A stretch of 64,000 bases of DNA from Parietichytrium sp. I65-24A (Eukaryota; Sar; Bigyra; Thraustochytrida; Thraustochytriidae). Below the pieces are notes generated by a model. It was given only the letters and a program-made list of their open reading frames with translations. It did no database searches and was not told the origin of the DNA. Below, one piece after another: positions 297 through 58,705 of this stretch (position 1 is the stretch's first letter; each line of letters opens with the position of its first letter). Made by a program: the position numbers and the translations under genes. The DNA lies in NCBI GenBank assembly GCA_012862575.1, contig BLSF01000031.1:310001-374000 (forward strand). Direction: 5' to 3'.

Positions 297-3200
297 ATGG
301 AGACCGGAGAAGAGAATTCACCACTTGCGAAAGCTTTGCGTGACCTTAGAAGTAATGATGTTGTCGAACTTGTGTAAGTCTCATCCTGACTCCTTTATGT
401 CTGGCTGAGTCAGTCACTGACCGCATGATTGCATCCTTCTCACAGTCTTGTATCCAATCGAATCGGTGCAGAAGGAGCATCGTCGCTGGCAGAAGCGCTC
501 AAGGTGAACACATCGTTGACCACTCTCTAGTAAGTCTCAAAGCTATGATTAGATGCACTTGAATAGGGTTATCTTTCCTTGATTACAGCGGATTCATCGC
601 AAGTCACTGACTCCTTCCTCCCCACAGTCTTCGCAGAAATCAAATCAGTGCAGAAGGAGCATCGTCGCTGGCAGAAGCGCTCAAGGTGAACACATCGTTG
701 ACCAGTCTCGAGTAAGTCTCAAAGCGATGATTAGATGCACTTGAATAGGGTTATCTTTCCTTGATGACTGCGGATCGTTTGGAAAGAGAACTGAATACAT
801 GCTCTTCACAGTCTTGAGAGCAATGAAATCAGTGCAGAAGGAGTATCGTCGCTGGCAGAAGCGCTCAAGGTGAACACATCGTTGACCAGTCTCAAGTAAG
901 TCTCAAAGCGATGATTAGATGCAAACTGAACAAGTCTATCTTTCCTGGATGACTGCGGATCAATTGAAAAGAGACTAACTGCACGCTCTTCACAGTCTTG
1001 GAGGCAATGACATCAAGGCAGAAGGAGGATCGTCGCTGGCAGAAGCGCTCAAAGTGAACACGTCGTTGACCAGTCTCAAGTAAGTCTCAAAGCGATCATT
1101 AGATGCAACTGAATAGGGTTATCTTTCCTTGATGACTGCGGATCGTTTGGAAAGAGAACTAAATGTGCGCTCTCCACAGTCTTGGCGGCTCTGACATCGG
1201 AGCAGAAGGAGCGTCTTCGCTGGCAGAAGCGCTCAAGGTGAACACATCGTTGACCACTCTCAAGTAAGTCACAAAGCGATATTTAAAATGCAAATCGAAG
1301 AAGTCTATTCTTCGTCGGCAATGCGAATTCATCAATAAATCGCTGACAGCGTCCTATTCACAGGCTTGGCGGCTCTGACATCGGAGCAGAAGGAGCATCG
1401 TCGTTGGCAGAAGCGCTCAAGGTGAACACATCACTGACAATTCTCGAGTAAGTCTCAAAGCTATGATTAGATGCACTTGAATAGGGTTATCTTTCCTTGA
1501 TTACAGCGGATTCATCGGCAAGTCACTGACTCCTTCCTCCTCACAGTATTTGCGGAAATCAAATCAGTGCAGAAGGAGCATCGTCGCTGGCAGAAGCGCT
1601 CAAGCGGAACACATCGTTAACCAGTCTCAAGTAAGTCTCAAAGCGATGAGTAGATGCACCTGAATAGGGTTATCTCTCCTTCATGACTGCGGATCGTTTG
1701 GAAAGAGAACTAAATGCATGCTCTTCACAGTCTTGACAGCAATCCAATCGAGGCAGAAGGAGCATCGTCGTTGGCAGAAGCGCTCAAGGTGAACACATCA
1801 CTGACAATTCTCAAGTAAGTCTCAAAGCGATGATTAGATGCAAACTGAACAAGTCTATCTTTCCTTGATGACTGCGGATCGTTTGGAAAGAGAACTAAAT
1901 GCGCGCTCTTCACAGGCTTGTATACAATACAACTAAGGCAGAAGGAGCATCGTCGTTGGCAGAAGCGCTCAAGGTGAACACATCACTGACAATTCTCGAG
2001 TAAGTCTCAAAGCGATGATTAGATGCACTTGAATAGGTTTATTATTCCTTGATGATTGTGAACTCATCGGCAAATCACTGACTGCTCCCTCCTCCCAGTC
2101 TTGAATACAATGTAATTAAGGCAGAAGGAGCATCGTCGCTGGCAGAAGCGCTCAAGCTGAACACATCGCTGACCACTCTCAAGTAAGTCAAAGAGCAGCG
2201 ATTGACAGCAGTTTGGCAAGCCTTTGCTTTCTTCTCCGTTGTGCACCCAATTGAGCAGGTTACTGACACCCAAGCTGATATTCTTCCAGTATTGATTGGA
2301 CAGAAGAAACATTGGCACTTCGGGAAGAATTTTACATTCGACTAGCAGAAAACCGCGCTTTGCACAACCAACCTCAAGTGGTTCGCGTTGGCGCCACATG
2401 CGCCGTGGACGATTCTCGGTTCGGTGAAGATCGGCTCGGGTACCTGCCTTATGCACACGCACTGATTCAAGCCGTTTTGAACGCTGAGAGTCCGAACCGG
2501 TCCCTCGCAGTGGGATTTTACGCGCACTGGGGAGCTGGAAAGAGTTTCATCATGGAGAAGATCAAAGAAGGACTCGAGGCGTCGGCGATGCGAAGAGTGA
2601 TCACTGAATGGTTGTTGGCAAAGAATAGTCAAAGCAAGCAGCAGCATTGCTCTGGTCTAGTCGAGGAGGACGTTTACAAAGAGATCATGCGCAAGAATAG
2701 AACCCGGCGTCGAACGCTGATGCAAGCTATGCTGCATGATATGATGGAGCATCAGACGAGTCAAGAAATCGAAAAATTGAGAAGCCTGAAGGAAATAGCC
2801 AATAGGAGCACGAATGAATTTCAACGTCAACGTCAGCAAGGCGATTCTGGCGCCTTATCACCGCTCTATGACACGAATGCTGAAGCAGAAAATGGTCTTC
2901 AGAAAGACGACTGCAGCAAACTAGAAGACCATGGAAGCCCTGATGATGACAATGCCAACGGCTCTCCCTCAATCTCTGGCCCGGTCCAATACGAGAGACC
3001 AGACGGACAACCCAGGAAATGGCTTCATCGGTGGTGGTGCTCAAGTCGACTGACTCGAAATGTCTTCCGATGCGGCAGAAGCAGACTTTCGGGAAGTATT
3101 GCCGTTGAGCCTGTCAATGATCATGATGTAAAACCTGCATCACTCAACACAGCCGAGCAAGCAAGAGCGAAAGATGCTGAGGAAGGCCAAGCTCATGGAA

Positions 3201-6200
3201 AGGAGAACACAAACCAACAGATTTGCGGGCATGCATTGCTCTGGGTGTGGTTTCGCATGTGGTCTGCGTGCGCTGGTTTGCTGGAATATGCGCTCGGCAC
3301 CAAGGCACAGAAGAGTAGTGCTTCGAAACGTGTGAGTGCAAGAGTAGCTGCGATCGCGTACGTGACGTCGCTTGGCAGCGTAGAGCTTGTATATTGCATA
3401 GTCTCTTTCGTCGTAAGACGGCTGAGGTGCTCTAAAACCCAAAAGAGCTCCGTTATGGAACATGGGTCCAAGAAAAGGTTCGTGCAAGCCGAACTATACC
3501 TGCAAGATGTCACATTTGCGAGGACAGTGATGTGGACAGCACTTCAAGCGACATACGCGTACGTCACTCGATCAGCAGACAGCCGTGTGGCGCCTGAAGG
3601 TGAGTCAGAGAGCGGCTATTCGTCATCTGTATCGGCCGACGAAATGACACATGGACAACAGCGCAAAGTGCTGGCCACGTATCCCATCACGGTGGACTTC
3701 AACGCGTGGGTATACAACGGGTCGGATGTGCTGTGGGCCGGTCTGGTAAAGGAGCTATTCGACCGAGTGGAGGGAACATTCGGTCCAGAAAAGGTTCGGC
3801 GACACCGCATGTGGGTCCAACGAGCGCTCTCCATGAATGGGGGACGGTGGCCAGCACAAGTAGATGACTGTTCTCCGGACGATCGTGCAGAGAACATTGA
3901 ACGGTTTGTGCAGCGATGCAAGCGGCAGATCGAGCTCAGGCACTTGAGAAATGAGATGTTGGTGGCGTGGGTGGTGCACTTTTCGATGGTGTATGTAATC
4001 TTGACGGCGTTGATTGCACCACGTGCCGCAGCGTCTACCATGGTAGACACAGCATCTTCGGAGAGTGACGCATCTTTGGCTTCACAGCTCTCGGTTGTTC
4101 CCGCATTTGCATTCCTGCTGACAGCGCTGGAGGCGGGTCGCCGAGCTGTGGACTATGTCGTGAGCGTACGCTCGTTTCTGAGCGAGTCCCGCGGATCGCA
4201 ACTTTTCGCAAAGGCACAGGACCTGAGCAGCGAGAGCAAAGTCGGGGAGCGACTGGGCTTCATGAACGAGGTCAAGACGGAGCTGATGTACCTTTTCGAC
4301 TTTTTGCAGTTGATGCCGCTCATGTCGGCCCAGGATGCCGAAACGGAGGTCCGCGTGATGGCGCGACTGAACGTGTACATCGACGACATAGATCGGTGTG
4401 AGCCACAATCAGTGATGACCGTGTTGCAGGCGACAATCTTGCTTCTCGTGGATGCTCCGATTACATGTTATTTAGCGATTGACACGCGGATGGTGACAGC
4501 AGCTGTGGAGGACGCATTCGGGAAGCCGTTCGAAAAGTCCGGGTTGACCGGCTTCGCGTTTCTGGAGAAGATTGTGCAGATCCCGTTCTCATTGCCGCCT
4601 CCTTTCCAATCGATTCAGAGACACTACTTGCACGGCATGGTATCCAAGTCCGAAGACCTCGCAACGGCACTGAGGCGTCTCCAAGAGCTGCTTTCTGAGG
4701 CGAAGATGAAACCCAAGTCTCGAGCTCTCGCGGGTGAGTGGAAGAATCTGCCTTTGAACGAACTGGCAACGCTTGTGAGAGAATCGGTCTCGCAATTAGA
4801 TCCCGAGTGGGCTGGGATGCTGGACAAGTCTGAGGCGCAGCAGATCTTGGATAGGCTGAGCACTGCGTCCGCATCAGCGGAACAAGACTTGGAGCGTGGA
4901 CAAAGGTCAATTGTGAAGGTGTTAAATGCTTGGATGCCAACCCAGCTCCTTGCGCAGCGGCAACTGGATGCGAAGCGAGTCGGAGAAGATCATCGAGAGA
5001 AGCTGGATACGAAGCACAAAGCACCAATCAAAGTTCACGGAGAGCAAGAAGTCAAGGAACAGACCGCAAGTGTGGAACCAAAGAGCGGAACAAGCAAGAG
5101 CATCAGCGACCAGAAATCTGACGGTCGTGATCGTGGTCGCAGCGACAAAGAAGAAGAGTCGATTGAGGAGCCAATCCGCCAACGAAGAAAGGATGATGAC
5201 GAGACGAAAATATCGGGCGACGGCATTCTTGGCGCGGAAATATCCGAAGTTTTGGACAAGGCTTTGTTCAACAGTAGCGAGGCAATTTACATGGACCGGA
5301 TGTCACCATTCATGCGGAGCAATCCACGGTACCTGAAGCGAGTGGTCAACTGCTACACGCTGCAGCGCAGTGTGATTCACGAGCTGCTCGAGCTAAAGGC
5401 CAACTCTCGACGCGAAGAAGATGTTTTGCGGCGGAAATGCTTTGTGTTGATGCTCGCAGTAGAGCAGTGGCCAATGCGAATGGCCTTCTTACTGGAACTC
5501 CTGGACACACGTGACGAGCTCCGGCACGAAGTGCACCGTGGTGGTGAAAGCGGAGGATACACCAAGACTCTTGAGGCTTTCTGCAACATCGAGCCAAAAG
5601 AAATGGAGAAGATGACCGTGTACGAGGTTCTCAAGTATTATGTGAACCCCCTGTGGTCGCAGCTGGACAAAGCGAGTCGCGCCAGTGTTCAAGAGATGGA
5701 CGAATCTCCTCTGCGATTGCAGGTTATGATGCTGCTTGGCGAGCAGATTCAGGTGTGGGAATTGCGTAAGCCTGGGGTATCAGGGTCGCTGAGGATTGAG
5801 AGAAGGGAGGACCTCCTTCTGCGGAGATTTCTATTCAACGAGCGGCCAGGTTTGGATAAAGTGGCGCAGCGACTGCTGCAAGAGCTGTGCAGCCAAATGA
5901 GTTTGGTCTGCAGGGGAGAGGAGGTGAAGGCGGGTTCAGTGCAGGCAGGCTTTGAAACGGGAAAATGTATGCCGGCACAGACAACTTCAGTTCATGTCGA
6001 GGCACAGACAGCTCTTTTGCGCGAGCTGCTTGAGGCACAAGAGCATGAGCGTTTGCAAGAACGAGAAGAGCGCAGGCGTGAGCTGGAGTTAAAGGAGCAG
6101 GAGCGCAAGCGTGAACTGGAGGTACAAGAGCGCAAATTCGAGGAGCTCCGAAAGCAGGAGCAGGAAAGGTTTGAGGCTCTTCGAAAGCACGAACAGGACG

Positions 6201-6511
6201 AACGCAGGCGAGAACAGGACGAACGCAGGCGAGAGCAGGAAAGGTTTGAGGCGCTTCGAAAGCAAGAGCAGGGCGAACGCAGGCGCGAACTGGAGGCACA
6301 AGAGCGCAAGTTCGAGGAGCTTCGAAGGCACGAACAGGAAAGGTTCGAGGCGCTTCGAAAGCAAGAGCAGGATAGGCACCTTGAGGAGGTGCGGAGGCAG
6401 GAAGCAGCCCAAAGCATACTGCAGAGTCAGTTCTTGGCCGTTCTGGAGCAGCAGCAGAAACAATTCGCCGAGATTCTAGCCTCTCAAGCCGCGAAAAGGA
6501 ATGAAGGTTAG
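297..6511 (+). CDS. LRR-KAP P-loop NTPase receptor-like protein (12 exons)
   Basis: Spliced gene, about 1712 residues. Exons: 297-373, then ten of exactly 84 nt (446-529, 628-711, 812-895, 996-1079, 1180-1263, 1364-1447, 1547-1630, 1731-1814, 1916-1999, 2099-2182), then 2290-6511. Every junction is GT-AG in the same phase, and the total (5139 nt) divides by three with no internal stop. Residues about 26-306 are ten ribonuclease-inhibitor-type LRRs. The last exon carries a KAP NTPase: Walker A HWGAGKS (Lys about 390), the KAP-typical FNAWVY segment, hydrophobic membrane-like stretches between the Walker motifs, and Walker B VYIDDIDRC (about 1001). Residues about 1540-1680 are a Glu/Arg/Gln-rich coiled coil with RFEALRKQEQ-type repeats. 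KAP proteins (Kidins220, PifA) are membrane-anchored ATPases. A sensing or scaffolding role is inferred from the NLR-like layout, not shown. Confidence 0.88.
446..2182 (+). repeat. Ten-unit exon-encoded LRR array with near-identical introns
   Basis: Ten 84-nt exons alternate with introns of 98-107 nt. The last two thirds of each exon, encoding AEGASSLAEALKVNTSLT, is almost invariant, and most introns begin with the same gtaagtctcaaagcgatgat block. Introns fall into two main classes by their 3' halves: one with ggaaagagaact then gctcttcacag (introns 3, 4, 5, 8, 9), one with a tcactgactcct-type end (introns 2, 7, 10). Variable bases cluster in the first 25 nt of each exon, which code for the LRR beta-strand face. 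The structure indicates recent tandem duplication of exon-plus-intron units. Confidence 0.9.
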
Positions 6512-7354
6512 CACAAATATAGCTGCTAAGCCAGTTGACACCCCTTCAGCGAGGAGCGCGGAAAGACTTGGGGCACGTAGACATTCGATCGAATGAACCG
6601 ACGGATCGCACACGTGCAACCGCTGAATATGCAAATCTCTCTCGCAAAAGAGCTAGCAGTTCGAGCCTCTGACTTAATCTGACAGAAATCAATGCGGGAT
6701 ACGGCCCATCATCAGGGTCAAAAGTGTACACCAAGATGTACAAAGTTTCCGGTGACTTCCGACGCATCATGATGCATACTACCACTTCTAACCACTTCAC
6801 AACCCTTCCTAATTGTTACCAACCCCTTCCAAGACTCCTAGTTATAGGTTGGTGCTACTAGACACTATAAGCCATCCTCTCCTTACCAAATACTCTTAAC
6901 GTTCTCTTCCTCAGCTTAGCACAGCTCACTACAATCCTCCTTAAGACCTCTTCTAATCACTGGCACGCACTCTTACGAATAGACTTATTCTGAATCTATA
7001 GAACCTTCTACCACTCTAGCTAGAGTAGCTATACAGAGTTTGATAAATCATGTTCTTACTATTGCATAACGCTCACTACTACTGCTACCACTGTAGGTAG
7101 AACGTGCATAGTGACGTACGTGTACACGTATGTGCGCGTACACTAGCAGTGGCGGCGAGGACACTGTTAAAGTGTGCGCGCGAAGGAGAGTAGAGTGCGA
7201 GAGGAGACTCCGGAGACTCCTGAGTTTCTAATTAGTTTTATAAATTCAAAAAGGAAGCGAAGGGTTCGCTTCGTTCGGTGACACATCTTCGGAGAAAGAA
7301 AGCAAACATAGAAAGAAAGAAAGAAAGCAAACATAGAAAGAAAGAAAGAAACAT

Positions 7355-7404
<50 letters not shown>

Positions 7405-7421
7405 GAGAGAGAGAGAGAGAG
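6512..7421. other. Intergenic region and Rogdi 5' leader
   Basis: No gene is supported. The region contains pyrimidine-rich sequence (about 6780-7030), a palindrome-like acgtacgtgtacacgtatgt block near 7113, and the AAAG microsatellite just before the Rogdi start. An 84-codon open frame on the minus strand (6546-6800) has no ATG at its 5' end and no recognised family. Confidence 0.6.
7294..7404 (+). repeat. AAAG tetranucleotide microsatellite
   Basis: About 110 bp of GAAA/AAAG repeats, interrupted by gcaaacata spacers and followed by a GA run. It lies directly before the ATG of the Rogdi gene, so it is probably in its 5' untranslated leader or proximal promoter. Read through, it gives a meaningless Lys/Arg/Glu-rich extension. 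Confidence 0.9.
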
Positions 7422-8912
7422 ATGGAGACGGAAAAGAAGGGTGCGCCAGTGATCCACGTGGGAAGTGGGAACTATGTGGTTCATAGCAGGAAGAGCGGAA
7501 GTTTGGAGAATGTTGGCGGGCTGGAGCAGGCAGATGACGGGCGATTGTTGCCGGAGGAGAAGTCGGCCATTGAATGCATGCGCCGTAGAATGTTGCACGA
7601 TGAGATGAACTTCACGCTGGAGAAAGTTCTCAAGCTGCTGGAACAGGTGCGCAAGGAGCTCAAGCCTCTCAGCGACATGTCGTATGAAATGCTTAGCGCC
7701 AAGGCCGTAGAGGCGTCGGAAAGCCACGAGCATTCAAAAGATGAGCTGCCTGTCGCGCATTCTCACAGCCGGCTTAAATTGCTCAGGCGTCCGAGCCCAC
7801 TGCAGTTTCTGCGCAAGTCGAGAAATGATGATGGAGCTACATTGCCGGTGCAGGAGGTGGTTGGCGCGCCGAATGTCGGGCTACACATGTCGCACAAGCA
7901 CAGCACGAAAGCCAATACGTCGCCAGGCACCGCAGGAGCTGGATCTGTATCAATGTCGTCGAGCTTGCGGAGTCTTTCCTCCTCATATCACCTAAAGAGA
8001 GGCTTCCATGTCGTCAGTAGCGCTGCAATTTCGAGCGCTGCACCGTCGGTGTCGTACTCGCCTTCCTCAAACACATGGATGGATGTTTCGTTGCAACTGG
8101 ACGGCTTTTATATTCGTCATGCTGCCATTGACTTGAAGTTGCAGCGACACCAAAAAAATTTGATAGCACGATCCACGAGCTCCACACACTCGTTCCACAC
8201 ACAAATCAGCCAGCCTCAGAACCCGTGGGTTCTCGATCAAGCCAAGCAAGTGTACGAACTGGCGGAAGGAGAGATTAAGCGAATCCTTGAGTTCAAACTC
8301 GAGAGTGCCAACGGCGAATGCGGGGTTGACGCCGCAATATTGGCCCATGACTGCCTCTTCCGAGTTGCGAGCTCCCTCGTAGAGATGCGCAATCTTTTCA
8401 GCAATCCAAAGAGGAACCATTTCCCAACCACCCTTCGGACCGCCGCAGACAAGACTGTGAGCCAGTTCAACCCTGCGCCACCCAAAGAGGTTCTCATTGA
8501 ATTTTCGATACATTTGGACGAGCTCATCGTTTCCGCGTATGAGCTGCACTACTTATCCACCTCCAAGGAATCCAGTAGCCCTGACTCTGATACTTGGGTG
8601 CCCGTGGACGACTACACCAACCGCGTCTTCCATTTCAGCGACGTCGGCAAAACAGTTCAGGTGATGGATCAGGTGCAAGTGCATTTCAAAGTGCATTCTC
8701 TGCAATGGGTGATGGAGAATCTCTTTGAAGCTTACAATGTGGTCATCCGGCAATTTCGCAAGATCGAGGCGTTGAACCGCCACGATGTTGCAACCCAACT
8801 CTCAGAACTTTCCAACGGAGCGGTGACTGGAGAGCTGCGTCGGCTCGCGGAATTCTTGAAATCTTCCTCGGTCCTTCCTCGCGTGATATATTCCAACTGG
8901 GTTCGGGATTGA
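7422..8912 (+). CDS. ROGDI: Rogdi-family protein (RAVE/V-ATPase assembly factor)
   Basis: A 496-residue single-exon protein. The start is the ATG after the GA run; the upstream open frame is microsatellite. Residues about 53-80 (MRRRMLHDEMNFTLEKVLKL) match the N-terminal helix of Rogdi (LLHDEVHAVLKQL in human). The strongest match is FNPAPPKEVLIEFSIHLDEL with VSAYELHYL, against human FAPALPSDLLVNVYINLNKL with VYQLHAL. The C-terminal VQVHFKVHSLQWVMENLFEA also fits. Rogdi/Rav2 works with DMXL/Rav1 in reassembling the V1 and Vo sectors of the V-ATPase at endomembranes; that role is transferred from the family. A Ser/Gly-rich insertion (about residues 130-215) makes it longer than the roughly 290-residue human protein. 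No membrane segment is seen. Confidence 0.85.
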   Translation: METEKKGAPVIHVGSGNYVVHSRKSGSLENVGGLEQADDGRLLPEEKSAIECMRRRMLHDEMNFTLEKVLKLLEQVRKELKPLSDMSYEMLSAKAVEASESHEHSKDELPVAHSHSRLKLLRRPSPLQFLRKSRNDDGATLPVQEVVGAPNVGLHMSHKHSTKANTSPGTAGAGSVSMSSSLRSLSSSYHLKRGFHVVSSAAISSAAPSVSYSPSSNTWMDVSLQLDGFYIRHAAIDLKLQRHQKNLIARSTSSTHSFHTQISQPQNPWVLDQAKQVYELAEGEIKRILEFKLESANGECGVDAAILAHDCLFRVASSLVEMRNLFSNPKRNHFPTTLRTAADKTVSQFNPAPPKEVLIEFSIHLDELIVSAYELHYLSTSKESSSPDSDTWVPVDDYTNRVFHFSDVGKTVQVMDQVQVHFKVHSLQWVMENLFEAYNVVIRQFRKIEALNRHDVATQLSELSNGAVTGELRRLAEFLKSSSVLPRVIYSNWVRD

Positions 8913-9249
8913 TGGGCCGTCGCGCGCTGACCATGCATTGATTCTTCGCGATATTCTTTCACCATTCCCCCGTCATGCTACCAGCTAGTTGGACGCGGAA
9001 GTGGAGCTTTGCCGCGCTGCTCTTTGTTTCTTGAATGGTGCACCAACAGCGCCTCGTGTCTCGACCATCGTCGTGACCATACTTGCGTACTCAAGGCACG
9101 CAGTGCCTATTGAGAAAAGGCAAACGATAAAGCCGAAGCTTGGGCTGTTCGTGGGGATCATGATTTTGATGCCGGTGTGGTGTCATGTTTTCTTCATTCT
9201 TATGTTTAAGTGAAAGTATTGTACTTATAGAATTCAAAAGAGACCATAA
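8913..9249. other. Convergent intergenic spacer
   Basis: Lies between the convergent ends of Rogdi and kynureninase and probably holds both 3' untranslated regions. A 74-codon open frame (8989-9213) starts with TTG and ends in a hydrophobic stretch, but has no family likeness and is not called. Confidence 0.6.
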
Positions 9250-10656
9250 TTATGCCATCTCGTACGCTTCCTTCAAAAGATGAACGAATTTGTACACGTC
9301 GCTGTAAGAATTGTACAGCGGTGCGGGTGCGACCCGCATCACGTTCGGCTCTCTCGTATCACAAATGACTCCCTGATTCTCCAACTGGGTGTGAACGCCT
9401 TTCACGGGCTTGTCGAACACCAGCGAGAGTTGGGCGCCTCTTTCTTGAACACGCTCGTATGGAGGTGTGATGACTTTGACGGATCCTTTGGGCATAAGTT
9501 CAAGCAAGAGCAATTCCAGGTACCGTGTGATTGAGACAGATTTCTTGCGGATCGCTGGCATCGTGGCGCGATCAAAGATCTTGAGCGAAGCCTTCAACGT
9601 CGCCAAGGCGAGGACGGACGGGTTGCTGAGCTGCCACGCAAACGCGCCCTTGCTAGGGATGAACTTCTCTTCCATCAGGAACCGATCCTCTTTACGGTGA
9701 CCCCACCATCCTTGCAGGCGAGGAACGTCCTCAAAGCGGTTCTCATGGACAAAAGCGCCTCCAATTCCGCCAGGACCGCTGTTCAGATACTTGTACGAAC
9801 ACCAGCATGCAAAATCAACGCCCCAGTCATGCAGCTTGAGTTCGACATTGCCGACCGCATGCGCGAGGTCAAATCCGACGTAGCATTTCCCATCGGTAGC
9901 CTTCTTCGCAGCGGCAGTGATCTTCTCCATTTCGAACACCTGCCCAGTGTAGTACTGAATCCCTGGCAGCAGCACCAGCGCCAAGCGGCTTGCATTCTCC
10001 TCGATGAGCGAAAGGATGTCCTCTGTGCGAATTGTCTCTTCGCCCTCCCGCGGGCGGACCATAATCAGGCACTCATTCGGGTCAAACCCATGCATCGCAA
10101 TTTGCGACTGAGCGGCCATGAAATCCGACGGAAATGCTTTGGCTTCCACTAGAATGGCATTGCGTTCCGCCGTGGGGCGGTAGAAGGACATCATCAGCAA
10201 GTGCAAATTCACGGTGAGACTGGCCATCGTGGCAACTTCATCTCGCTGGGCGCCCACCACGGCGGACATTTCGTCCACACAAAGTTCGTCGATTTCCACC
10301 CAGGGAGCTTGACCGTAGAATTGCCCTTCCACGCCCCTTTCCGCCCACTCCGACAGTTCTTTGTTCACGTGCTCGCGAGCCGAAACCGGTTGCAATCCGA
10401 GTGAATTACCGCACAGATACACGCAGCAACCATCTTCACTTGCAGACGAAGATTGAGAATGATCATGATCATTTTCATGACCCTGGCCCTGCTGCCGCTG
10501 GGCGTGCGTGCGAGCCGGGATGAGAAATTCAGAGCGGAATTCCGCCAACGCGTCCTGCGAGTCCATGCATTCCGCCACGGATTTAGCGCTCAGATTTCCC
10601 GCCGAGCTCACGCACGCGGCGAGGTCGGCAGGCATCGGTGGCAGCTGAGAGGACAT
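9250..10656 (-). CDS. KYNU: Kynureninase
   Basis: A 468-residue PLP enzyme that hydrolyses kynurenine to anthranilate and 3-hydroxykynurenine to 3-hydroxyanthranilate, each releasing alanine, in tryptophan breakdown and de novo NAD synthesis. Diagnostic segments: YLCGNSLGLQPVSAREHV near the N-terminus, GQFYGQAPW, VGFDLAHAVGNVELKLHDWG, and WCSYKYLNSGPGGIGGAFVH, where Lys289 is the PLP Schiff-base lysine. Length matches animal and fungal enzymes (about 465). The ATG at 10656 begins MSSQLPPMPADL; there is no targeting peptide, so it is probably cytosolic. It diverges from the PCNA-motif gene across about 1.1 kb. Confidence 0.97.
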   Translation of the reverse strand: MSSQLPPMPADLAACVSSAGNLSAKSVAECMDSQDALAEFRSEFLIPARTHAQRQQGQGHENDHDHSQSSSASEDGCCVYLCGNSLGLQPVSAREHVNKELSEWAERGVEGQFYGQAPWVEIDELCVDEMSAVVGAQRDEVATMASLTVNLHLLMMSFYRPTAERNAILVEAKAFPSDFMAAQSQIAMHGFDPNECLIMVRPREGEETIRTEDILSLIEENASRLALVLLPGIQYYTGQVFEMEKITAAAKKATDGKCYVGFDLAHAVGNVELKLHDWGVDFACWCSYKYLNSGPGGIGGAFVHENRFEDVPRLQGWWGHRKEDRFLMEEKFIPSKGAFAWQLSNPSVLALATLKASLKIFDRATMPAIRKKSVSITRYLELLLLELMPKGSVKVITPPYERVQERGAQLSLVFDKPVKGVHTQLENQGVICDTREPNVMRVAPAPLYNSYSDVYKFVHLLKEAYEMA

Positions 10657-11749
10657 TCTCTATAGTTGTAGTTTGTACGCTGGCTGGCTGGCTGGCTGGT
10701 TGGTTGGTTGGTTGGTTGGTTAGGTCGTAGGAGCAATGGTAGAAGACGCTATGTGCGAGTGCGGTTTCGTCTGCGGACAGTTTGACGTACGCGCGGGAAA
10801 TTTCACGTATGCGAACCGTTAGAAACGCTGTTTTGATATGTTGAGAGTGACACATGCTTGTGCGGAGAGAGGGACGGACGTCCTGGTGCGAATTTAGGAG
10901 TATCTTTTTGCTATCTAGAGTCTATCGAAAAAGGTAGCAACTAGAAAATATATTCTAAATTCTAAAGACTACTATAGATATATTACGTAGGACGTCACTG
11001 CTAATCAATAATCATATAATATTTATTCATTATGCACCATATAGACACAACTATAGACGAATACTGCTACACGGATCATAACTTAATTTCTAAAAGTAAA
11101 ACGTGGTGTGAGAGAGAGAGGCAGAGGCTCAGCAGTTTCTTTCAAACTCAAAATTTTCAAAAACATAAATAATTCACCGAGCTGTGGGAGAATTGTGCGA
11201 TATCGTACTGTTGTCTGATAGAAGATTGCCTAGAAGCTGCGTCCGCGCGCACAAAGCACACACATACACACATACACATACACACACATAGAGAGTCTGA
11301 ACTCTGAGACAGATCTGTGGGAGAAGGAAAAAGGAATAAGGTGTTGGAGTTGTTGTTGTTGGAGAACGGAGAACGGAGAAGTGGTGAACGTGAACTTGTT
11401 CTTGGTTTTTAATTGGAGAGCTCTTGGGAGTACGTCATTGGTGGATAGATTGAATTAATTATTCGAAATTGAAAACAAACTTGGGAGCTCGAAGCGTCAG
11501 GACAGTGCATGTGTCTGGTGTCTGGTGTTTGGTGTTTGGAGTTTGGTGTTTGTTTACGGTTCTATCTCTATCGGATCGGGTGAAGTGCGATACGGAACTC
11601 GTGGATTAGAAGCATTGAATGCTGGAGACAGACCGATTGTTTGTGTTGGTCGTCGCTTGCAAGAAGGACTCTAGCTAGTTTGCTTGCGCTGTGCTCGGTG
11701 TCGACTTAGTCTTCCCGTTCACTGCTGATGTCTCTGCGAAAGGGCGAGA
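10657..11749. other. Divergent promoter region between KYNU and the PCNA-motif gene
   Basis: About 1.1 kb without a supported gene. It holds a (GGCT)n(GGTT)n tract at 10681-10722, an AT-rich stretch near 10900-11100, a CACA/CATA run at about 11260-11290 and TGTCTGGTGTTTGG-like short repeats at about 11513-11555. Both flanking genes read outwards, so both promoters should lie here. Confidence 0.7.
10681..10722. repeat. (GGCT)n(GGTT)n microsatellite
   Basis: A compound tetranucleotide run beginning about 25 bp upstream of the kynureninase ATG (minus strand), so it probably lies in that gene's leader. Confidence 0.9.
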
Positions 11750-19369: not shown

Positions 19370-20871
19370 CTTTCGCCTGCGAGTCGGACGACGGCAGGGG
19401 TTTCGCGCGCCAGAGTACCACGGTCCCGCGTCGACGGCTTTCCAACCAAAGCTATTCGCATCCGCGGACCGCTCTCTGCACGCGGCGACGAAGGAGGGAG
19501 CTCTTTGCAAAGACAAGATCGGCGGCGAATCGATTAAGAGCGCGTCCTTTGTATATACATAGACGATGCCAGAACTCTACGATGGCGCAGCAGGAGCTAG
19601 CTATCAATCCCAATTCCGCGCCGCATTTGAACCAGCTCGCTTTTGCGGACTTTACCTTTCGTTAGGCGCATTGCTCGAAGCGCCTTGGAAGCTTGGACTT
19701 GGCTAGCTTCTTATGGAAGAGCAGTGCAAAGAGAGAGATAGAGATTAATATAAAGATAGAGTGAGAGATCGAATGCAATCGCGAGCCAGAAAGGACAGGT
19801 GGATATGGTGGATAGCTCCGCACGAGTGCGGCTGGCGTAGCTTTTCCATGTGCTTTTCAATGTGCTTGTGTCATGTGCTTTGAGGTTGAGGTTTCTGCTC
19901 AAGGCACAAGTCCAATATTCGCGACAAACATTCCTGTCTGTCATTCGTAGACGAGAGATTTGTTCCATGGAAAAGAAAACAACGAGAAGAAAATCCTTTC
20001 TCTGGCGTCCAAAATTGTTTTGTACGACATGATTGACAAAAGTCAGAGAAGAAAAATACTCCTTGATTGAAAAAAAATGCAGTGTAAAATCGATCCGTTG
20101 CGGAATACTGGTCCAGTGCCAGTGACAGTGCCGTCAATTGATCGACCCACGCATCGACATCTATTTCCTAGTCTCAGCCGCAGCTCCAAATTAATCTATC
20201 CAGAATTGGACGAAATTACTACCAATACAGCCATCCGCGGTCTCGTGCACACTTTTCCAAGTCTCGCCTACCGCCTAAAGGCATCTAACTTTAACCCTAA
20301 ATGCAACTCCACCACGTTAGTAGTCTGTTACCAAAGAGTACCGGTGAATGCAATTTTTCCAGGGCTCTTAGCGGAGTGGTACTTGGCGCTTATATTTTCC
20401 TAGCGAAATGACGTGGTCTTGATCGACTTGTGCATTTTTTTTCTTTCGATTTGGACTTCTTCTCAATGAATAATAGACTGCTTTTCGGATGGAGTGTATG
20501 GAGCTGCGGAGCACAGCATTGAAGAATCAAGACCATGAAAAGAGAGCTCTGGTGGAAGAGATGAAAGAAAGGTATCTCATATCTCTCTTTCTAGTTTGGA
20601 GCTTGACTGAAAGGCTCAGACCGCAGCATCGATGAATACGTTTACTTTAACTCTGGTGTGCTTCCCATCTTACCTTCGTTACCTTCACACGAATGCACCA
20701 CGGTCGTCGCGAAATGGTTATCATTAATTAACCAGAAGACACACAAACAAACTCTGGACGCCTTTGGCAAACGGCAACAACACAAACGGCCGCCATTGCG
20801 CGTGGCAGACCTCTCCGTGTCTTTGCGCAGTTGAGAGCCCGACTTGAGCGCTCAGGACGCTCGAGTTGGAG
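19370..20871. other. Divergent intergenic region
   Basis: About 1.5 kb upstream of both the CxxC gene (minus) and PX-VPS9 (plus). The part to about 19580 may be leader or a 5' exon of the CxxC gene, with tgtatatacat at 19550-19560. Two short ATG frames are visible: 46 codons from 19566 and 48 codons from 20489 (MECMELRSTALKNQ, helix-like, followed by a possible donor). Neither joins in frame to PX-VPS9 and neither is called. Confidence 0.6.
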
Positions 20872-22848
20872 ATGAACCCCGCCTGCGCGACCCCGAAACC
20901 ACCAGCGCCACCTTTGCCTCCACGGAAATATAAACTCAACCGCAACCCTGTAAAAGACGAAGCGGCGGAAGCTGGAGTACCTCCTCAAGGTGAAGGTGTC
21001 GTGGTCGAGGAGAAGGACGGCGCTGAAGTGGAATTAGAGGTCCGCAAAGTGTCGGAAACATGCCTGGAAACTGTTTCTTCACTGGCAAGGGCTGTGGCGG
21101 TGACTGTGACGGTGGACCCGAAAGCAATCTCAAGCTTGTCTATTCCAGGATACACTGTGAAGGTTGATCTTCTGGCGAAAACGCAAAAGCCGTTTGTGGC
21201 GTACTTTATACAGGTCGAGTGCAACGATGGCGTGGGCTGGACCGTGGAGCGCAGATTTTCAGAGCTCTTTAGCCTGTCCAAGATGGTGACCTTCAAGAAG
21301 AGTGCTGGAAAGCGGCCGCGTTTTCCGTCCAGGTTTACTCGGAAAGGCTCCTTTTCTTCGGAGCTGCTGGAATACCGTCGCCATGCTCTGGAAAAGTATC
21401 TGCAATATTTGCTCAGCTATTCCGAAACTCCGGAGGCAAAGGCGGAAAATGACTCGCAGCGAATTTCAACACTAATTGAAAACGCGTTTGGCTACAAGAA
21501 TGGCCGAGAGGCATGGCGAGGCTCTCGCGGGCGCTCAAGAAGCGGGTCTTTCTTTAACAAATATTCAAAAAGCAGCAAAGACCTAATCGGCGACCGCGTG
21601 CTTTTGCAAGGGCGAGAGCTGTTGAAAGCGATTCTGAAGAACCATCCGAAGCTGGTGATGCCAACCCAACCAGCCAACAAAATTTCTAAGATGATTGATG
21701 GCGGCGCTGATTTCGAAACAAAGTCTAGGGTATTCAGCGATCTTGCGCGAATCGCAGCCCAGGAGCAAGGCAGGATAGACCGATTCGTGGGAAAAATTCT
21801 CCTCGAGTATGAAGACCTCCTCGGCGCCATCCGAGCATCGCGCGGTCAGTCGTTCGACAATCATGTGTCTAGCGAGAGCGACGGAGACGTTTTGGCCGCA
21901 CGCGAGGTTTCAGAGGAGAGCGCCGATACTTTCGCGTCAAGTTCTTGTGCAAACTTTGCTGAACTAGAGCCAAGTGCGTCGCAACGTGGACCGCCTCCGC
22001 CCCTCTCAAAGAAAACGTCTTTTATCGCCGACATGGTGAAGGGAAGATTATCTCGCCGTCGAAAAAGCAAGCAGGGCGAGAGCGAGGATGGCCTGGCTGA
22101 GCAAGTTCTCTCACGGGTTCATAGGTTTCTAACACAGCTTTCACTTGCTGTCTTGAACGAGAATAAAGGCGCGCTCAAGCCCACCGAGGCGCTCGGTTTC
22201 TCAGAGAGTTTTAATCTTGACGTCCTATATCGTCTCTTTGAGGTCTCCATGTTCAGAAGGCATCCGAAAGCACGAGAGCTGCTTCAGGCTTGCTCTCGAG
22301 CCGCCCCAAATGTGAAGGAGGTGAACGAAAAATTTACAGCGCAGCAAACCTGGCTTAAACGTCGATTTGGAGATCGAGGGATCCCCCCGTCGCTTTTTGG
22401 GGCGCATGTGCATCCTTCCTTTAGCGTTTCACAGCAGCAAGATGCTGCTTCGAATACAGAGGCAAGCTTTTGCTGGGGTTGGGAGCATGCTGTTAAGCCT
22501 TTGGATGACTTGAACGATGACGAGACTTACCCTGCGCCCAGCGAAAAAGCTGACTTACTCATGAAGTGCGTGGAGGAGATCCACAATGGCTTGGAACTGA
22601 GCTACAAGAACGCAAACCTCCAACAAGAAGGGTCTGAGCCGAAAGCTCTCGGCGCAGATGACTTTGTGCCAATCTTTTTTTACGCCATTGCTTGCTCAAA
22701 TGTACAGGATCCAGAAGCAATCGCGACATACATCGGAAGTCTCGCAAGTGACGCTCTTTTGGACACCTCCGCAAAGTACTGGTTGACTGTCTTCCAGTCA
22801 GGTCTCCAGTTCCTTTCATCTTTGGACATCGGTACTTGTGAGCCTTGA
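20872..22848 (+). CDS. PX-VPS9 domain protein, probable Rab5-type GEF
   Basis: A 658-residue single-exon protein. The start is the first ATG (MNPACATPKPPAPPLPPRK), with an upstream in-frame stop at 20845. A Pro-rich head leads into a PX domain at about residues 88-208: ERRFSELFSLSKMV carries the Arg that contacts the 3-phosphate, and YRRHALEKYLQYLL is the typical alpha-2 segment. The C-terminus is a VPS9 domain: GADDFVPIFFYAIACSNVQD holds the conserved Asp, and KYWLTVFQSGLQFL matches the Tyr-containing helix. PX domains bind PI3P on endosomes and VPS9 domains exchange GDP on Rab5/Rab21 GTPases, so an early-endosome GEF is the natural reading. A middle helical region (GRELLKAILKNHPKL...) is unassigned. 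Confidence 0.88.
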   Translation: MNPACATPKPPAPPLPPRKYKLNRNPVKDEAAEAGVPPQGEGVVVEEKDGAEVELEVRKVSETCLETVSSLARAVAVTVTVDPKAISSLSIPGYTVKVDLLAKTQKPFVAYFIQVECNDGVGWTVERRFSELFSLSKMVTFKKSAGKRPRFPSRFTRKGSFSSELLEYRRHALEKYLQYLLSYSETPEAKAENDSQRISTLIENAFGYKNGREAWRGSRGRSRSGSFFNKYSKSSKDLIGDRVLLQGRELLKAILKNHPKLVMPTQPANKISKMIDGGADFETKSRVFSDLARIAAQEQGRIDRFVGKILLEYEDLLGAIRASRGQSFDNHVSSESDGDVLAAREVSEESADTFASSSCANFAELEPSASQRGPPPPLSKKTSFIADMVKGRLSRRRKSKQGESEDGLAEQVLSRVHRFLTQLSLAVLNENKGALKPTEALGFSESFNLDVLYRLFEVSMFRRHPKARELLQACSRAAPNVKEVNEKFTAQQTWLKRRFGDRGIPPSLFGAHVHPSFSVSQQQDAASNTEASFCWGWEHAVKPLDDLNDDETYPAPSEKADLLMKCVEEIHNGLELSYKNANLQQEGSEPKALGADDFVPIFFYAIACSNVQDPEAIATYIGSLASDALLDTSAKYWLTVFQSGLQFLSSLDIGTCEP

Positions 22849-26425: not shown

Positions 26426-29400
26426 CTAATTTATGCCACGGTGAGGAGCGGAGAGAGATCCGACCGAGCTGGTTCCTTGCTGGCGAGACCAAACGTACTC
26501 TTGATTGAAGCAGGCAAATATTGTGTTGGCGCTACAAATAACGGCTTCTGCAGCGGGCATCACGCCTTGCACAGCATTCGGCTCCGCAATAACCGCCCCG
26601 TTGGCCTCGTCGAGGCCCCATTGGTAGATTAATTCAGTCTTGGTGGTGACTGCCGTGTTGTATCTGCCGCAGTCAATATGTACGACATGTTCATGTGCGA
26701 GCCTCAGGACAGGTTGTGGGACGAGGCAGCTTGCGCCAGATGTGGTATTTCTGATGTATAAGCATGAAGGCTGTAAATCGTCGGCGGATCCAAACGAATC
26801 TTCTGCTCTCCTGCGCGGAGTTGAAGTCTTCTCAATCGAGAGAATGCCCTGGTCACTGGAAGTGCGAGCCCGTAGCGGCTCAGGAGCCCCAGTTTGGGCA
26901 AAGTCTCCCAGGGGAAATAGGTTGCGCAACTTGTGGAAAAATGTCTGCACAACCTCGTTCCCCTTTTCCCCTCCGCCGATTGCAGATTGCTCTCGCTGCC
27001 TCAAACCATGATTTTCCTTCATTTTGTCTGGAAGAACTGCAACTCCAAACCCCAATTGCCCAAAAGCCCCACTCCCGAATGTAAACACACGGCCTTCACA
27101 GGTAAGAAATGCTGAATGCGCATAGCCAGCAGCAACTTGGAGCGGGGCATCCGTTTCTCGAAATGCATTAGTTCTTACTTCCTGCGGGAAGCAGCTATCG
27201 GCCAAGGCGCCAGTTCCAAGTCGACCGTCACGACCGCACCCAAACGAGTAGACCTTTTTATCGCTCATTGCCAAGGAGTGGGACCAACCCGCGGCGATGC
27301 CTCGGACGCGAATGCCTTCAAGGTGTTTAACGAGGGCAGGGAGGTGCAGCGTTTTTTGGTCTCCGTGTCCAAGACGGCCACAGTGGCCTCTGCCACATGT
27401 CCAAAGTTTCGCATTCACGGTCAGTATCAACGTGTGCCTCGCCCCACAAGCCACGTCAACAGCAGCTTGATTTACCAGGTTACTTTTCAGGTCTGTCAGC
27501 TCTAGTTGCACCGGTGTCGCGCAATGATCCACCTCGCATTTGCCAATTCCGAGCTGGCCCTCGGAATTGCTACCCCAAGAGAAAACCGCGCCAAGCTCGT
27601 CTACAGCAACGATGTGGTTCTCTCCGACGGACACACGCTGGAAGCGGCGTCTAGACAATAGTGCATGATGCATCCCTGTGCTGACCCGAATTCTGCCGTT
27701 GGTGGAAATGGAGCATTGCAAGTCTGGAGTGTACTTGCTGCAAGAGAGCTGAACCACGTCCGACATGCTGCCGAGTTCCGACTGAGGATACAATCCACTA
27801 GCGCTCGACAGCGACAATAATCTCTCAAGCTCTTGAGCCCGGCTAACCTCAAGCACAAAGTATCCCTGGTGGTTCAGGTTGTCGTGCAATGCGACACTTT
27901 CAGTGTCCATAGTATGAAGAGACACATTGTCAGCATGGCCTTCCACAGACCAGTCGACGTGTTGACCCATCAAAGTCCCAGTGATTGTGGGAGGGTGGCT
28001 CGCGCCGTTGGTGAGGACCCATTGCACGGCAACCTCAACATTGGCCAAGTTATAGCCAAGCGCGGAGGTGTTGACGTTGAGGGCGTGAAAGGCGCGAATG
28101 AACTCAATCTGCGACACGATATTTCTGCATCCGTCTTGGTTTGCCCACACGAGAATGTAAATTAGCTGGTCGAGGAGATCGTCCGTGGTCAGCTGAAAGG
28201 AGTCAACGTCTTCCCTCGCAACGTGAGAATAGAGGCTCGCTTCCACTGCACCATTGACCAAGTCAATTGCCTTTGCCAGACAGATAAGCTTGCCCAGAGC
28301 TGTGGGGTTTTCTTCCAGGGATGCGAGTTTTTCGATAGCCAGATGCTGCGAACATTGAAACTCTGGACGCATCCCAAGGTCTTGCTGCGAGAAATCTTGA
28401 GCGCGCAGAACGGCGCAAGCTTGATTGAAGCGGGCATCGTCCACGGAACATCTCTGTCGTACTAGCTCCATCAGCGTGGTATGGGTGGAGAGCAGTAAGT
28501 GGGCTTCCAGAGCCTGCTCGAGCTGGACGGTGTGTCGTCTCGTTTGGTTTTTGAGCATGGGTCCTGGCGGTTGTCCCAAAGAGTCGCAGCATGTGCAGCA
28601 ACTCATCGCGCCCGAGGGTCGAACTCTGACCCCTTCAACTGCAGCGTGCTCATCTTCCCCAAACCTGGTCTCAGGCTCCAGGAACCGGGCAAACATGGGC
28701 GATTGCTCGATCATGGCCTTGGCACTCGACCTCACGCACTGCCTGACCATGCCTTTCGCTCTCGACAGGTCTTGCGCGTCGGATGACATGTCTCCGCCGT
28801 CGCTGCCAACGAACGTTTTGTTGAGATACCACGCCAAATCGTCAATCTCGGCAAAAATGACGTCGTGTTCCGGGAGCGCCTGGAGAAGCCACAGGTACTG
28901 CTTTAACTGGGCCAGCTCCATGCCTTCTAAGGTGCACGGCAACCGGCAGCCGCCTCGTAAGGGCCTGTCGACGTGAATCACGCGCACCACTACATCCGTA
29001 AACGTCCCATCTCGTTCGCGCACCTTGAAGCCTTCCACGTCTTCAGTGTACAGAATGTGCAACTCTCTGCTCTCCCAAGAAGGCCACACATTGCCAAGCC
29101 GCTCGTTCGTTGTGCGCATTTCGGCGTCGCACTCGCATTCGCATTCGCATTCGCACTCGCATTCGCACTCGCACTCGTACTCGCATTCACGTTCGCATGC
29201 ATCCCTTCCAGACTTTGGAATTGCATTCCAAGAATCGAATCCTGCATATTGCGAGCCGCGGGAGCCCTGCGGATGTGACGCATCGGCGAGCACATAGAGC
29301 CGGCTGCCTTTAAACCTCACAGCCACGCCGTCCAGAGTCCAAAACAGTCCGCCATTTGCAAGTTCCATCTCCGGAGAGTGATTCTGAAAGCTCTTGTGCC

Positions 29401-30049
29401 CAGAAGCGATTAGAGGATCTTGGTCCGGGATCAATACTTGCGACTGGCTGTGGTAATCACTCTCCTTGCAAGCCTCGTTTCCTACTTGAGAATCATCCTG
29501 GATATCCTGGATCTGAACATGGCCAATATGTTCACGCCGTGCGTTTCCATCTCTATCTCCATCTCCATCTCCATCTCCAATGCCCGAATGCGATTCATAC
29601 GAATCATTCGAATCTTGCCGTTTCGAGATGATCTTAAGATCCGAGTGCGAGAGATCCGAGTGCGAATTCCGGCCACTCTCTTCCGCTTCCATTGCGGAGC
29701 TCGTACCGGTATTGGTATTCGGCCCATTTTCCGCGCCAATACGTTCTGCGTGCTCGGGAACGCATCTCCGCGAGAACCCATCTCGCAGCTCGCGCTGCCC
29801 CCGGTTCTCCGACCGAGAACCCGCCCGGCTCCTCAGCACGTGCGACCTCACCGTGGCGTCGTCCGCGTCCTCGCGCTGGGCCAGCGCCTGCGGAACGCAA
29901 ACGAGCACCAGCTCCGGAGACGCGTTCCCGCTGCTGTTCCTGCTGTTCCTGCTGTTCCTGCGGTCCCCGAGCGCCTGCGCCAGGAACGTTCCTGCGTTCC
30001 GCGAAAGGTGCCGGAACACCGGGTTCGTGGCCAGGTCCTCGGCTTCCAT
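26426..30049 (-). CDS. VPS9-RCC1 protein, alsin-like Rab GEF
   Basis: 1207 residues, single exon, ATG at 30049. The N-terminal quarter is low-complexity and includes GDGDGD and an alternating Glu-Cys tract at about residues 283-305. A VPS9-type domain spans about 540-690: TTDDLLDQLIYILVWANQDG holds the conserved Asp, and LGYNLANVEVAVQWVLT the Tyr helix. The C-terminal third has RCC1 repeats with DELGAVFSWGSNSEGQLGIG, AKLWTCGRGHCGRLGHGD, KKVYSFGCGRDGRLGTG and GRVFTFGSGAFGQLGFG, which should form a seven-bladed propeller. RCC1 plus VPS9 is the alsin (ALS2) pairing, but here in reverse order and without visible DH-PH or MORN repeats. A Rab5-class exchange role is inferred. A second VPS9 protein lies about 3.6 kb away. 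Confidence 0.85.
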   Translation of the reverse strand: MEAEDLATNPVFRHLSRNAGTFLAQALGDRRNSRNSRNSSGNASPELVLVCVPQALAQREDADDATVRSHVLRSRAGSRSENRGQRELRDGFSRRCVPEHAERIGAENGPNTNTGTSSAMEAEESGRNSHSDLSHSDLKIISKRQDSNDSYESHSGIGDGDGDGDRDGNARREHIGHVQIQDIQDDSQVGNEACKESDYHSQSQVLIPDQDPLIASGHKSFQNHSPEMELANGGLFWTLDGVAVRFKGSRLYVLADASHPQGSRGSQYAGFDSWNAIPKSGRDACERECEYECECECECECECECECDAEMRTTNERLGNVWPSWESRELHILYTEDVEGFKVRERDGTFTDVVVRVIHVDRPLRGGCRLPCTLEGMELAQLKQYLWLLQALPEHDVIFAEIDDLAWYLNKTFVGSDGGDMSSDAQDLSRAKGMVRQCVRSSAKAMIEQSPMFARFLEPETRFGEDEHAAVEGVRVRPSGAMSCCTCCDSLGQPPGPMLKNQTRRHTVQLEQALEAHLLLSTHTTLMELVRQRCSVDDARFNQACAVLRAQDFSQQDLGMRPEFQCSQHLAIEKLASLEENPTALGKLICLAKAIDLVNGAVEASLYSHVAREDVDSFQLTTDDLLDQLIYILVWANQDGCRNIVSQIEFIRAFHALNVNTSALGYNLANVEVAVQWVLTNGASHPPTITGTLMGQHVDWSVEGHADNVSLHTMDTESVALHDNLNHQGYFVLEVSRAQELERLLSLSSASGLYPQSELGSMSDVVQLSCSKYTPDLQCSISTNGRIRVSTGMHHALLSRRRFQRVSVGENHIVAVDELGAVFSWGSNSEGQLGIGKCEVDHCATPVQLELTDLKSNLVNQAAVDVACGARHTLILTVNAKLWTCGRGHCGRLGHGDQKTLHLPALVKHLEGIRVRGIAAGWSHSLAMSDKKVYSFGCGRDGRLGTGALADSCFPQEVRTNAFRETDAPLQVAAGYAHSAFLTCEGRVFTFGSGAFGQLGFGVAVLPDKMKENHGLRQREQSAIGGGEKGNEVVQTFFHKLRNLFPLGDFAQTGAPEPLRARTSSDQGILSIEKTSTPRRRAEDSFGSADDLQPSCLYIRNTTSGASCLVPQPVLRLAHEHVVHIDCGRYNTAVTTKTELIYQWGLDEANGAVIAEPNAVQGVMPAAEAVICSANTIFACFNQEYVWSRQQGTSSVGSLSAPHRGIN
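29129..29200. repeat. In-frame GAATGC/GAGTGC hexamer repeat
   Basis: On the coding (minus) strand, about twelve hexamers encode alternating Glu-Cys in the VPS9-RCC1 protein. Being a hexamer, gains and losses keep the frame. Confidence 0.9.
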
Positions 30050-30472
30050 CCGCGCGGATTTCCTACCGAGACGTTTCTGCCACGTTTCTTTCTCGGTCGG
30101 GTTGCTGGTTGCAGCTCCCTGCTCCTAACACCCCGCATAGTAGAAACCTTAAGGAGAAGATCCATGCGCTCGAAACTGCGGAGGGTCTGGTGAGAAGCAC
30201 ACGCAGTGAAAATGTTTGTTCGTTCTGTTCACTATCGCTGACTAGAGGAAGAGGTACTGTATGGTTTTGCCATTCTGCTGGTGTGTATTTTGAGGTGAGC
30301 AAGGGTGTGAATGTTACAAGATTTTGTCTGATTGTGTAATACATGTTGATTTCTCAAAATCAATAAGCCAAGAAAGACTGTGGTGCATGCTCGCCTTGAT
30401 TTTCAAGGTTAACTTTTTAAAAGAGTGGGAGACTGGGGCATCGATGAGTCATCTTCTCAAGAAGAGATGACC
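30050..30472. other. Intergenic spacer
   Basis: Upstream of VPS9-RCC1 and outside the esterase duplication. No open frame with a recognisable product and no RNA gene is seen. Confidence 0.6.
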
Positions 30473-58532: not shown

Positions 58533-58667
58533 CGCTATCCAACTAGCTCTGCTTTTCCTCTTCGCCTTTTGTCTTTTTTCCTTTTGCTCTTCCTTTTGCT
58601 TTTCCTTTTCCTTTTGATCTTGGCTCGCGTTCTGAGTTGGTGTTGTTGTTGTTGAACTTCCGTTTGT

Positions 58668-58705
<38 letters not shown>

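Follow-up and report, generated by a model that had tools for sequence, protein, structure and literature searches.

Genes in which each leucine-rich repeat (LRR) has an exon of its own are known from brown algae, humans and ciliates. Brown-algal ROCO genes, which are candidate immune receptors, carry phase 2 LRR exons of 72 bp that undergo shuffling and have four positively selected concave sites (PMC11378527). Human NOD/NLRC genes have mostly one 28-residue LRR per exon in a frame-preserving arrangement (PMC6642158). Thousands of Tetrahymena genes contain LRR exons of 90 bp, with an extreme phase 2 bias and a named junction amino acid, and ectopic recombination has been proposed for them (PMC6564038). 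In the Podospora HNWD genes het-d and het-e, repeats are exchanged within and between paralogues, and four residues of the interaction surface are under diversifying selection (PMC1805685). Here we describe gene C, found in a window of 64,000 nt from the thraustochytrid Parietichytrium sp. I65-24A (contig BLSF01000031.1, below C31; C31:310001-374000 in a 42.5-Mb assembly of 172 contigs). Gene C is a member of a small paralogous family, LRR-KAP, in which an array of one-repeat exons is joined to a KAP P-loop NTPase. The new part is this coupling to a KAP module, the design itself being known from brown-algal ROCO, Tetrahymena, human NOD/NLRC and fungal HNWD genes. We read the family as NLR-like proteins that would bind ligands and serve non-self (pathogen or allo-) recognition, and give this reading a probability of about 0.58.

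Gene C lies on the plus strand, from an ATG at 297 to a stop codon ending at 6511. Spliced, it codes for 1712 residues without an internal stop. Its features, in positions of the window, are the following.

297..373, plus strand: exon 1, with start codon and N-terminal cap, ending in phase 2 (from the spliced open frame)
374..445, plus strand: intron 1, GT..AG
426..2189, plus strand: tandem array of exon and intron units, period 184, 9.6 copies (Tandem Repeats Finder)
446..529, plus strand: LRR exon C1, 84 nt
628..711, plus strand: LRR exon C2, 84 nt
812..895, plus strand: LRR exon C3, 84 nt
996..1079, plus strand: LRR exon C4, 84 nt
1180..1263, plus strand: LRR exon C5, 84 nt
1364..1447, plus strand: LRR exon C6, 84 nt
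1547..1630, plus strand: LRR exon C7, 84 nt
1731..1814, plus strand: LRR exon C8, 84 nt
1916..1999, plus strand: LRR exon C9, 84 nt
2099..2182, plus strand: LRR exon C10, 84 nt
2290..6511, plus strand: last exon, with KAP P-loop NTPase, hydrophobic inserts and charged C-terminal repeats, stop included (Pfam and open frame)
2531..2545, plus strand: Walker A motif, GAGKS
3959..4129, plus strand: two segments of strong hydrophobicity (residues 863-881 and 901-919; hydropathy 2.25 and 1.68), situated between the Walker A and DDIDR motifs
4382..4396, plus strand: Walker B-type motif, DDIDR
6191..6376, plus strand: tandem repeats coding for the charged C-terminal region (Tandem Repeats Finder)

The ten 84-nt exons proposed in the initial annotation are real, with AG/GT borders and one open frame, and the six strand segments listed there (LVSNRIG, LRRNQIS, LESNEIS, LGGNDIK, LDSNPIE and LVYNTTK) read as claimed. 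Each exon corresponds to one 28-residue LRR of the ribonuclease-inhibitor type and is in phase 2 at both ends. The spliced LRR domain matched LRR_6 in Pfam (E 5.7e-61) as well as 82 distinct solved sequences; the best 60 of the 82 included ribonuclease inhibitors and NLRP chains. The last exon matched KAP_NTPase (PF07693; E 6.7e-27, 94.9 bits, cut-off 20). The Pfam search of this exon, taken up to E 0.1, further gave one sub-threshold Torsin match and neither the NACHT or NB-ARC domain of canonical NLRs nor ROC-COR. As in canonical NLRs, an LRR array is combined with a P-loop NTPase, here with the LRRs first and the NTPase second. Five segments of gene C, called by their hydropathy alone, exceeded a value of 1.2; three of them lie between Walker A and DDIDR (two strong, one weak at 1.23) and two past DDIDR.

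Two paralogues, A and B, are located on C31 0.22 Mb from gene C, with start codons at C31:77503 and C31:86218, respectively. Scanning C31:70001-100000 and the surroundings of gene C with mismatches allowed, we detected 37 LRR units in total, 18 in A, 9 in B and 10 in C. All 37 exons are of 84 nt and phase 2 with AG/GT borders and an open frame, and the border falls within the strand as judged from the LxxLxLxxN pattern, an exon layout of the NOD/NLRC type. Such a border is not new, since in most NLRs an exon border occupies a constant position of the beta-sheet (PMC6642158). The 450 bp upstream region differs by 8-11% among the paralogues, and the 3' part of intron 1 of gene C has an identity of 0.82-0.84 to its counterparts in A and B. 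Over 1335 codons of the KAP exon, A and C differ by a nonsynonymous rate (dN) of 0.037 and a synonymous rate (dS) of 0.134, a ratio of 0.28 that indicates constraint. Over its N-terminal part (624-635 codons), dN and dS were 0.029 and 0.061 for A-B (ratio 0.48), 0.047 and 0.121 for B-C and 0.047 and 0.125 for A-C.

The initial annotation had also suggested a search for spare exon cassettes at other loci. A 112-nt unit query against the genome, in which the best candidates were scored, yielded 36 matches, all on C31 and all (36/36) within the three arrays; an exact 36-base pattern search yielded 7, in the arrays only. Among viral contigs there was one pattern match and no confirmed relative. 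Other LRR open reading frames (ORFs) were found on a second contig, C99 (C99:1-10000, the first part of which is N), as a tandem family of a 676-aa ORF and its relatives that is intronless across the stretch seen. The exon-per-repeat design may therefore be peculiar to the LRR-KAP family in this genome, as far as can be told from an LRR_6 search that scored 150 of 372 candidates and from intron status read at the C99 loci only.

Nucleotide diversity among the exons of gene C was 0.35 over nt 1-25, 0.07 over nt 26-73 and 0.16 over nt 74-84. The diverse first 25 nt are thus as initially described, while the last 55 nt are not wholly invariant: there is variation also at codon 26 and at the two final bases, which are the first two of the split codon. 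With variation at both exon ends, the variable positions therefore follow a single beta-strand and its succeeding loop. Over the 37 units, the most replaced of the 28 codons were 2, 7, 5, 3, 28 and 26. Codons 26, 28, 2 and 3 correspond to the exposed residues of the strand in LxxLxLxxN, around L27 and L1, and codons 5 and 7 sit in the loop past the strand; this mapping follows the LxxLxLxxN pattern and general LRR knowledge rather than a structure. All four strand codons are among the six most replaced of 28 (0.0007 by counting), and the fifth x of the pattern, T25, is conserved in 35/37 units. Ten different residues occur over the 37 units at codon 28, the codon split by the intron. Exchange at this phase 2 intron may thereby also reassort a putative binding residue of the proposed recognition face. 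In 32/37 units the exon begins with T, so the residue of the split codon mostly travels with the upstream exon. Among the 37 units, 34 of the first-25-nt blocks are distinct, as are all 37 exons.

The introns had been described as near-identical, which does not hold. Within gene C the first half of the introns had a diversity of 0.13 and the second half one of 0.275; the corresponding values for the three genes together (34 between-unit introns) were 0.26 and 0.29. Nor do the repeats look recently duplicated: the proportion of synonymous differences (pS) at framework codons between units of one gene was 0.18-0.29, exceeding that between KAP exons of paralogues (0.06-0.12). Judged by this comparison, the repeats appear to be no younger than the gene duplication.

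The units are mosaics. Distances for the upstream intron, the first 25 nt, the exon core and the downstream intron correlated at 0.05-0.28, and clearly exceeded permuted data only for the upstream intron with the variable part (0.23, p 0.003) and for the core with the downstream intron (0.28, p 0.002). In 34/37 units no single nearest neighbour served the upstream, variable and downstream parts alike. The best whole-unit match lay within the unit's own gene for 8/10 units of C, 9/18 of A and 0/9 of B. Units of A were most alike at shifts of 3 and 10 (0.805 and 0.804), other shifts up to 14 giving 0.74-0.78. The end units are anchored, with A and B having similar first introns and all three genes similar last ones, and repeat number varies from 9 to 18 among the paralogues. 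Most simply, homologous introns would mediate unequal exchange and conversion, with selection for new face residues; such exchange would be frame-safe because the exons are symmetric. Repeat exchange within and between paralogues together with selected surface codons is the HNWD type of pattern, exchange being read here from similarity patterns.

This likeness raises the question of what kind of non-self would be recognized. Het-d and het-e share with the LRR-KAP genes repeat exchange, a few selected surface codons and a variable repeat number (PMC1805685), as would be expected if the family served allorecognition between conspecifics, like the fungal HNWD genes, instead of pathogen sensing. 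We found no feature that tells the two apart, and regard allorecognition in place of pathogen sensing as a minority possibility.

As to selection, the check by codon position suggested with the initial annotation showed that replacements concentrate at the six codons. Over the 37 units, the proportion of nonsynonymous differences (pN) at these codons was 0.580 and pS 0.351, a ratio of 1.65 (bootstrap 1.42-2.0). The ratio was 1.68 (1.38-2.29) for the four strand codons and 0.28 (0.21-0.34) for the other 22 codons; gene by gene, the six-codon ratio was 1.55 in A, 1.41 in B and 1.78 in C. A codon model run on two trees gave omega values of 3.99 and 5.32 for the six codons, 3.77 and 4.36 for the strand codons and 0.25 and 0.23 for the framework. 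An omega of 1 fitted worse, with twice the difference in log-likelihood (2dlnL) at 16.4 to 61.7 over the codon-model fits and at 23.6-34.3 for the six-codon fits. Diversifying selection on concave sites, as in brown-algal LRR-ROCO genes, is thus seen here by tests other than the site models of that paper.

Introns differ by 0.26-0.29 across the three genes, less than the six-codon pN of 0.58. Nine A-B pairs, aligned by the order of their units, had a six-codon pN of 0.453 and an intron difference of 0.132, a ratio of 3.4 (2.3-5.4); in seven B-C pairs the values were 0.531 and 0.244, a ratio of 2.2 (1.4-3.0). These results support the earlier proposal that diversification is aimed at the putative recognition face. 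In six A-B pairs with well-matched flanks, 25/36 face residues differed, compared with 17/132 framework residues and 41/500 intron positions (8.2%). A neutral simulation for these six pairs gave 0.178 per codon and P ∼1e-11 if codons are independent, a value that is too small because short conversion tracts could import several changes together. Pairs A1-B1, A2-B2 and A3-B3 were excluded post hoc from this stricter count for one poorly matched flank; in them 5/6, 5/6 and 6/6 face residues differed.

Two pairs of intronless C99 LRR ORFs, with 32 and 40 motif codons, served as control. In the first pair, face pN was 0.051 and face pS 0.000, with 0.065 and 0.059 elsewhere. In the second, face pN was 0.086 and face pS 0.074, with 0.030 and 0.059 elsewhere.

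A pattern of this kind could also arise if new repeats diverge by relaxed constraint and adaptation after duplication and are then conserved, in a scaffold protein with no non-self role. Accelerated evolution of paralogous repeats followed by conservation has been reported to be universal (PMC5120217), and pS at the face codons of our units is raised too (0.35 over all pairs, 0.355 in A-B pairs). However, the A-B face replacements of 0.45 against 0.13 in introns extend across the gene duplication, the differences at 25/36 face residues compare with an expectation of 0.178 per codon, and face pN in the similarly close intronless paralogues of the control is far under that of the A-B pairs. We therefore consider relaxed repeat evolution a rather unlikely explanation.

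Under the preferred reading, NLR-like non-self recognition, the concave LRR face would bind ligand and the KAP NTPase would act as a switch or effector, presumably at the membrane. The repertoire would shift in the germline, rather than somatically, as unequal exchange and conversion between homologous introns add, remove and swap repeats with the frame kept. Repeats could move without frame loss because each LRR is an 84-nt phase 2 exon between homologous introns. Diversifying selection would then alter the residues of the strand face, where the intron itself splits one variable codon.

Several points weigh against this reading. KAP proteins also act in non-immune signalling, Kidins220 being an example. 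The basis is one genome with three assembled arrays. The trees behind the omega values ignore recombination, which violates the single-tree assumption, and two of the six codons were picked after variation had been seen. When all five x positions of LxxLxLxxN were taken instead, pN and pS were 0.47 and 0.31 over all pairs and 0.307 and 0.307 in five close C pairs. In the A-B pairs the face-codon pS of 0.355 is far over the intron difference of 0.132, and part of the A-B face excess may for this reason be older or imported sequence. Face pN also exceeded the rest in the second control pair, on 8 changes. Finally, a dN/dS of 0.38-0.48 over the N-terminal part of the KAP exon indicates that constraint on it is not strong.

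Like the brown-algal LRR-ROCO genes, the LRR-KAP genes are candidate immune receptors in which each LRR has its own phase 2 exon, exons appear to be shuffled and concave sites are under selection. The algal exons are of 72 bp, encode 23-residue LRRs and are coupled to ROC-COR (PMC11378527), whereas those described here are of 84 bp, encode 28 residues and are coupled to KAP. S. japonica has extra LRR-exon sequences outside its ROCO genes (PMC11378527), while none was found here among the unit-query matches returned. With the Tetrahymena arrays our genes share phase 2 LRR exons of exact length and a split junction residue; those arrays differ in having 90-bp exons in thousands of genes, and the available part of the source mentions no KAP module (PMC6564038). 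Podospora HNWD genes carry WD40 repeats, which the LRR_6 repeats here are not. They have a NACHT module and are not known to have an exon-per-repeat structure. A NACHT module is also found in human NOD/NLRC genes, whose repeats are far more diverged from one another than those of the present arrays.

The KAP domain is common to gene C, QatA, Tmn, Kidins220 and PifA. Among the PADLOC models, QatA was the best match of the KAP part (E 1e-16), and the plasmid record heading a list of 80, annotated QatA, was 31.9% identical across 71% of a 222-residue KAP segment. QatA and Tmn both belong to bacterial defence against phages. What QatA itself does there is unsettled, since QatB and QatC on their own protect from some phages (PMC13279940). 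Tmn, likewise a KAP NTPase, has two transmembrane domains (PMC11846954). An NLR-like locus in a green alga is also reported to include a KAP domain, and the available text on it describes no exon-per-repeat array or face diversification (PMC7145615). A search of open-licence papers gave no report of a KAP P-loop coupled to leucine-rich repeats, and one on exon structure and selection led to two papers, that on the ROCO genes and a review of plant NLRs. Tentatively, we suggest that a polymorphic receptor of eukaryotes could here use the KAP NTPase as its switch, its LRR exons being reshuffled via homologous introns; it would be a KAP-based equivalent of NLRs that evolved independently. The presence of the exon-per-repeat design on a KAP NTPase too suggests that this route to recognition diversity arose more than once, and that the design can couple to an NTPase class that bacterial antiviral defence also uses. 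Three arrays of unequal length on one contig would make a compact test site for intron-guided repeat exchange in the non-self recognition of a microbial eukaryote.

A repertoire could also be generated by splicing, if the symmetric exons were skipped in combinations to give many isoforms per gene. With 37/37 exons of 84 nt and AG/GT borders any skip would be frame-safe, and alternative splicing of LRR exons has been reported in brown-algal ROCO genes (PMC11378527) and in NLRP3 (PMC6642158). On its own, splicing leaves the replacement excess unexplained; it is compatible with NLR-like recognition, and we think it improbable as the main source of diversity. Adenine-directed mutagenesis, as by diversity-generating retroelements, was a further candidate, which we discarded on visual inspection of the codons.

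Lamprey VLR genes are incomplete in the germline and have flanking donor LRR cassettes. The initial annotation had likened the array to them, and modular exons and mosaic units would suit a somatic assembly of LRR cassettes. Gene C is complete in the assembly, however, and no unit or donor cassette lay outside the three arrays among the matches returned by the unit query, which scored only the best candidates in an assembly with gaps adjoining gene B; a VLR-like assembly is accordingly very improbable. Collapsed or chimeric repeats produced by the assembly are hardly credible either, since the two single-N gaps that speak for them break the copy beside gene B, while no N occurs in the checked stretch around gene C and the 37 units are intact and their exons distinct.

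KAP matches over the cut-off were found at seven places in the genome, six on C31, belonging to the LRR-KAP family, and one on contig C43. The KAP exon of gene B is interrupted by a single N at C31:89900, and another KAP copy starts beyond it. This further copy (C31:89900-93200) is interrupted by an N at C31:91304, is without the part matching residues 492-783 of the KAP exon of A, and switches frame twice in the assembly. No LRR array is assembled with it, and the gaps may conceal one. The C43 match was rejected as a family member: it belongs to a long KAP/P-loop ORF (C43:122001-132000, 5947-9999) with WD40-like repeats by eye and without LRRs, a separate LRR ORF lying on the opposite strand. 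This ORF possibly encodes a STAND-type protein.

Downstream of gene C, the window contains an ORF bearing a Rogdi leucine zipper domain (7236-8909), a kynureninase-like ORF (9250-10659, minus strand), a PX-VPS9 ORF (20848-22845), an Alsin-like protein with RCC1 repeats and VPS9 (26429-30124, minus strand) and a single-frame MLH1-like mismatch repair gene (55953-58769, minus strand). At 61128-61485 there is a 120-bp tandem unit in three copies with internal CAAAATC repeats. Elsewhere in the genome, a 5583-residue open frame at C66:8562-22499 with repeated matches to the PfaA model is a candidate giant modular polyketide synthase; a PfaA-type polyunsaturated fatty acid synthase, a mark of thraustochytrids, did not exceed its cut-off. 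A 17-base ribosomal RNA pattern located two small-subunit 3' ends, which may be stramenopile-like, whereas a 23-base small-subunit pattern matched nowhere. On contig C16, a stretch that by eye resembles a Copia-like reverse transcriptase/RNase H ends ∼300 bases before the 3' end of a small-subunit ribosomal RNA.
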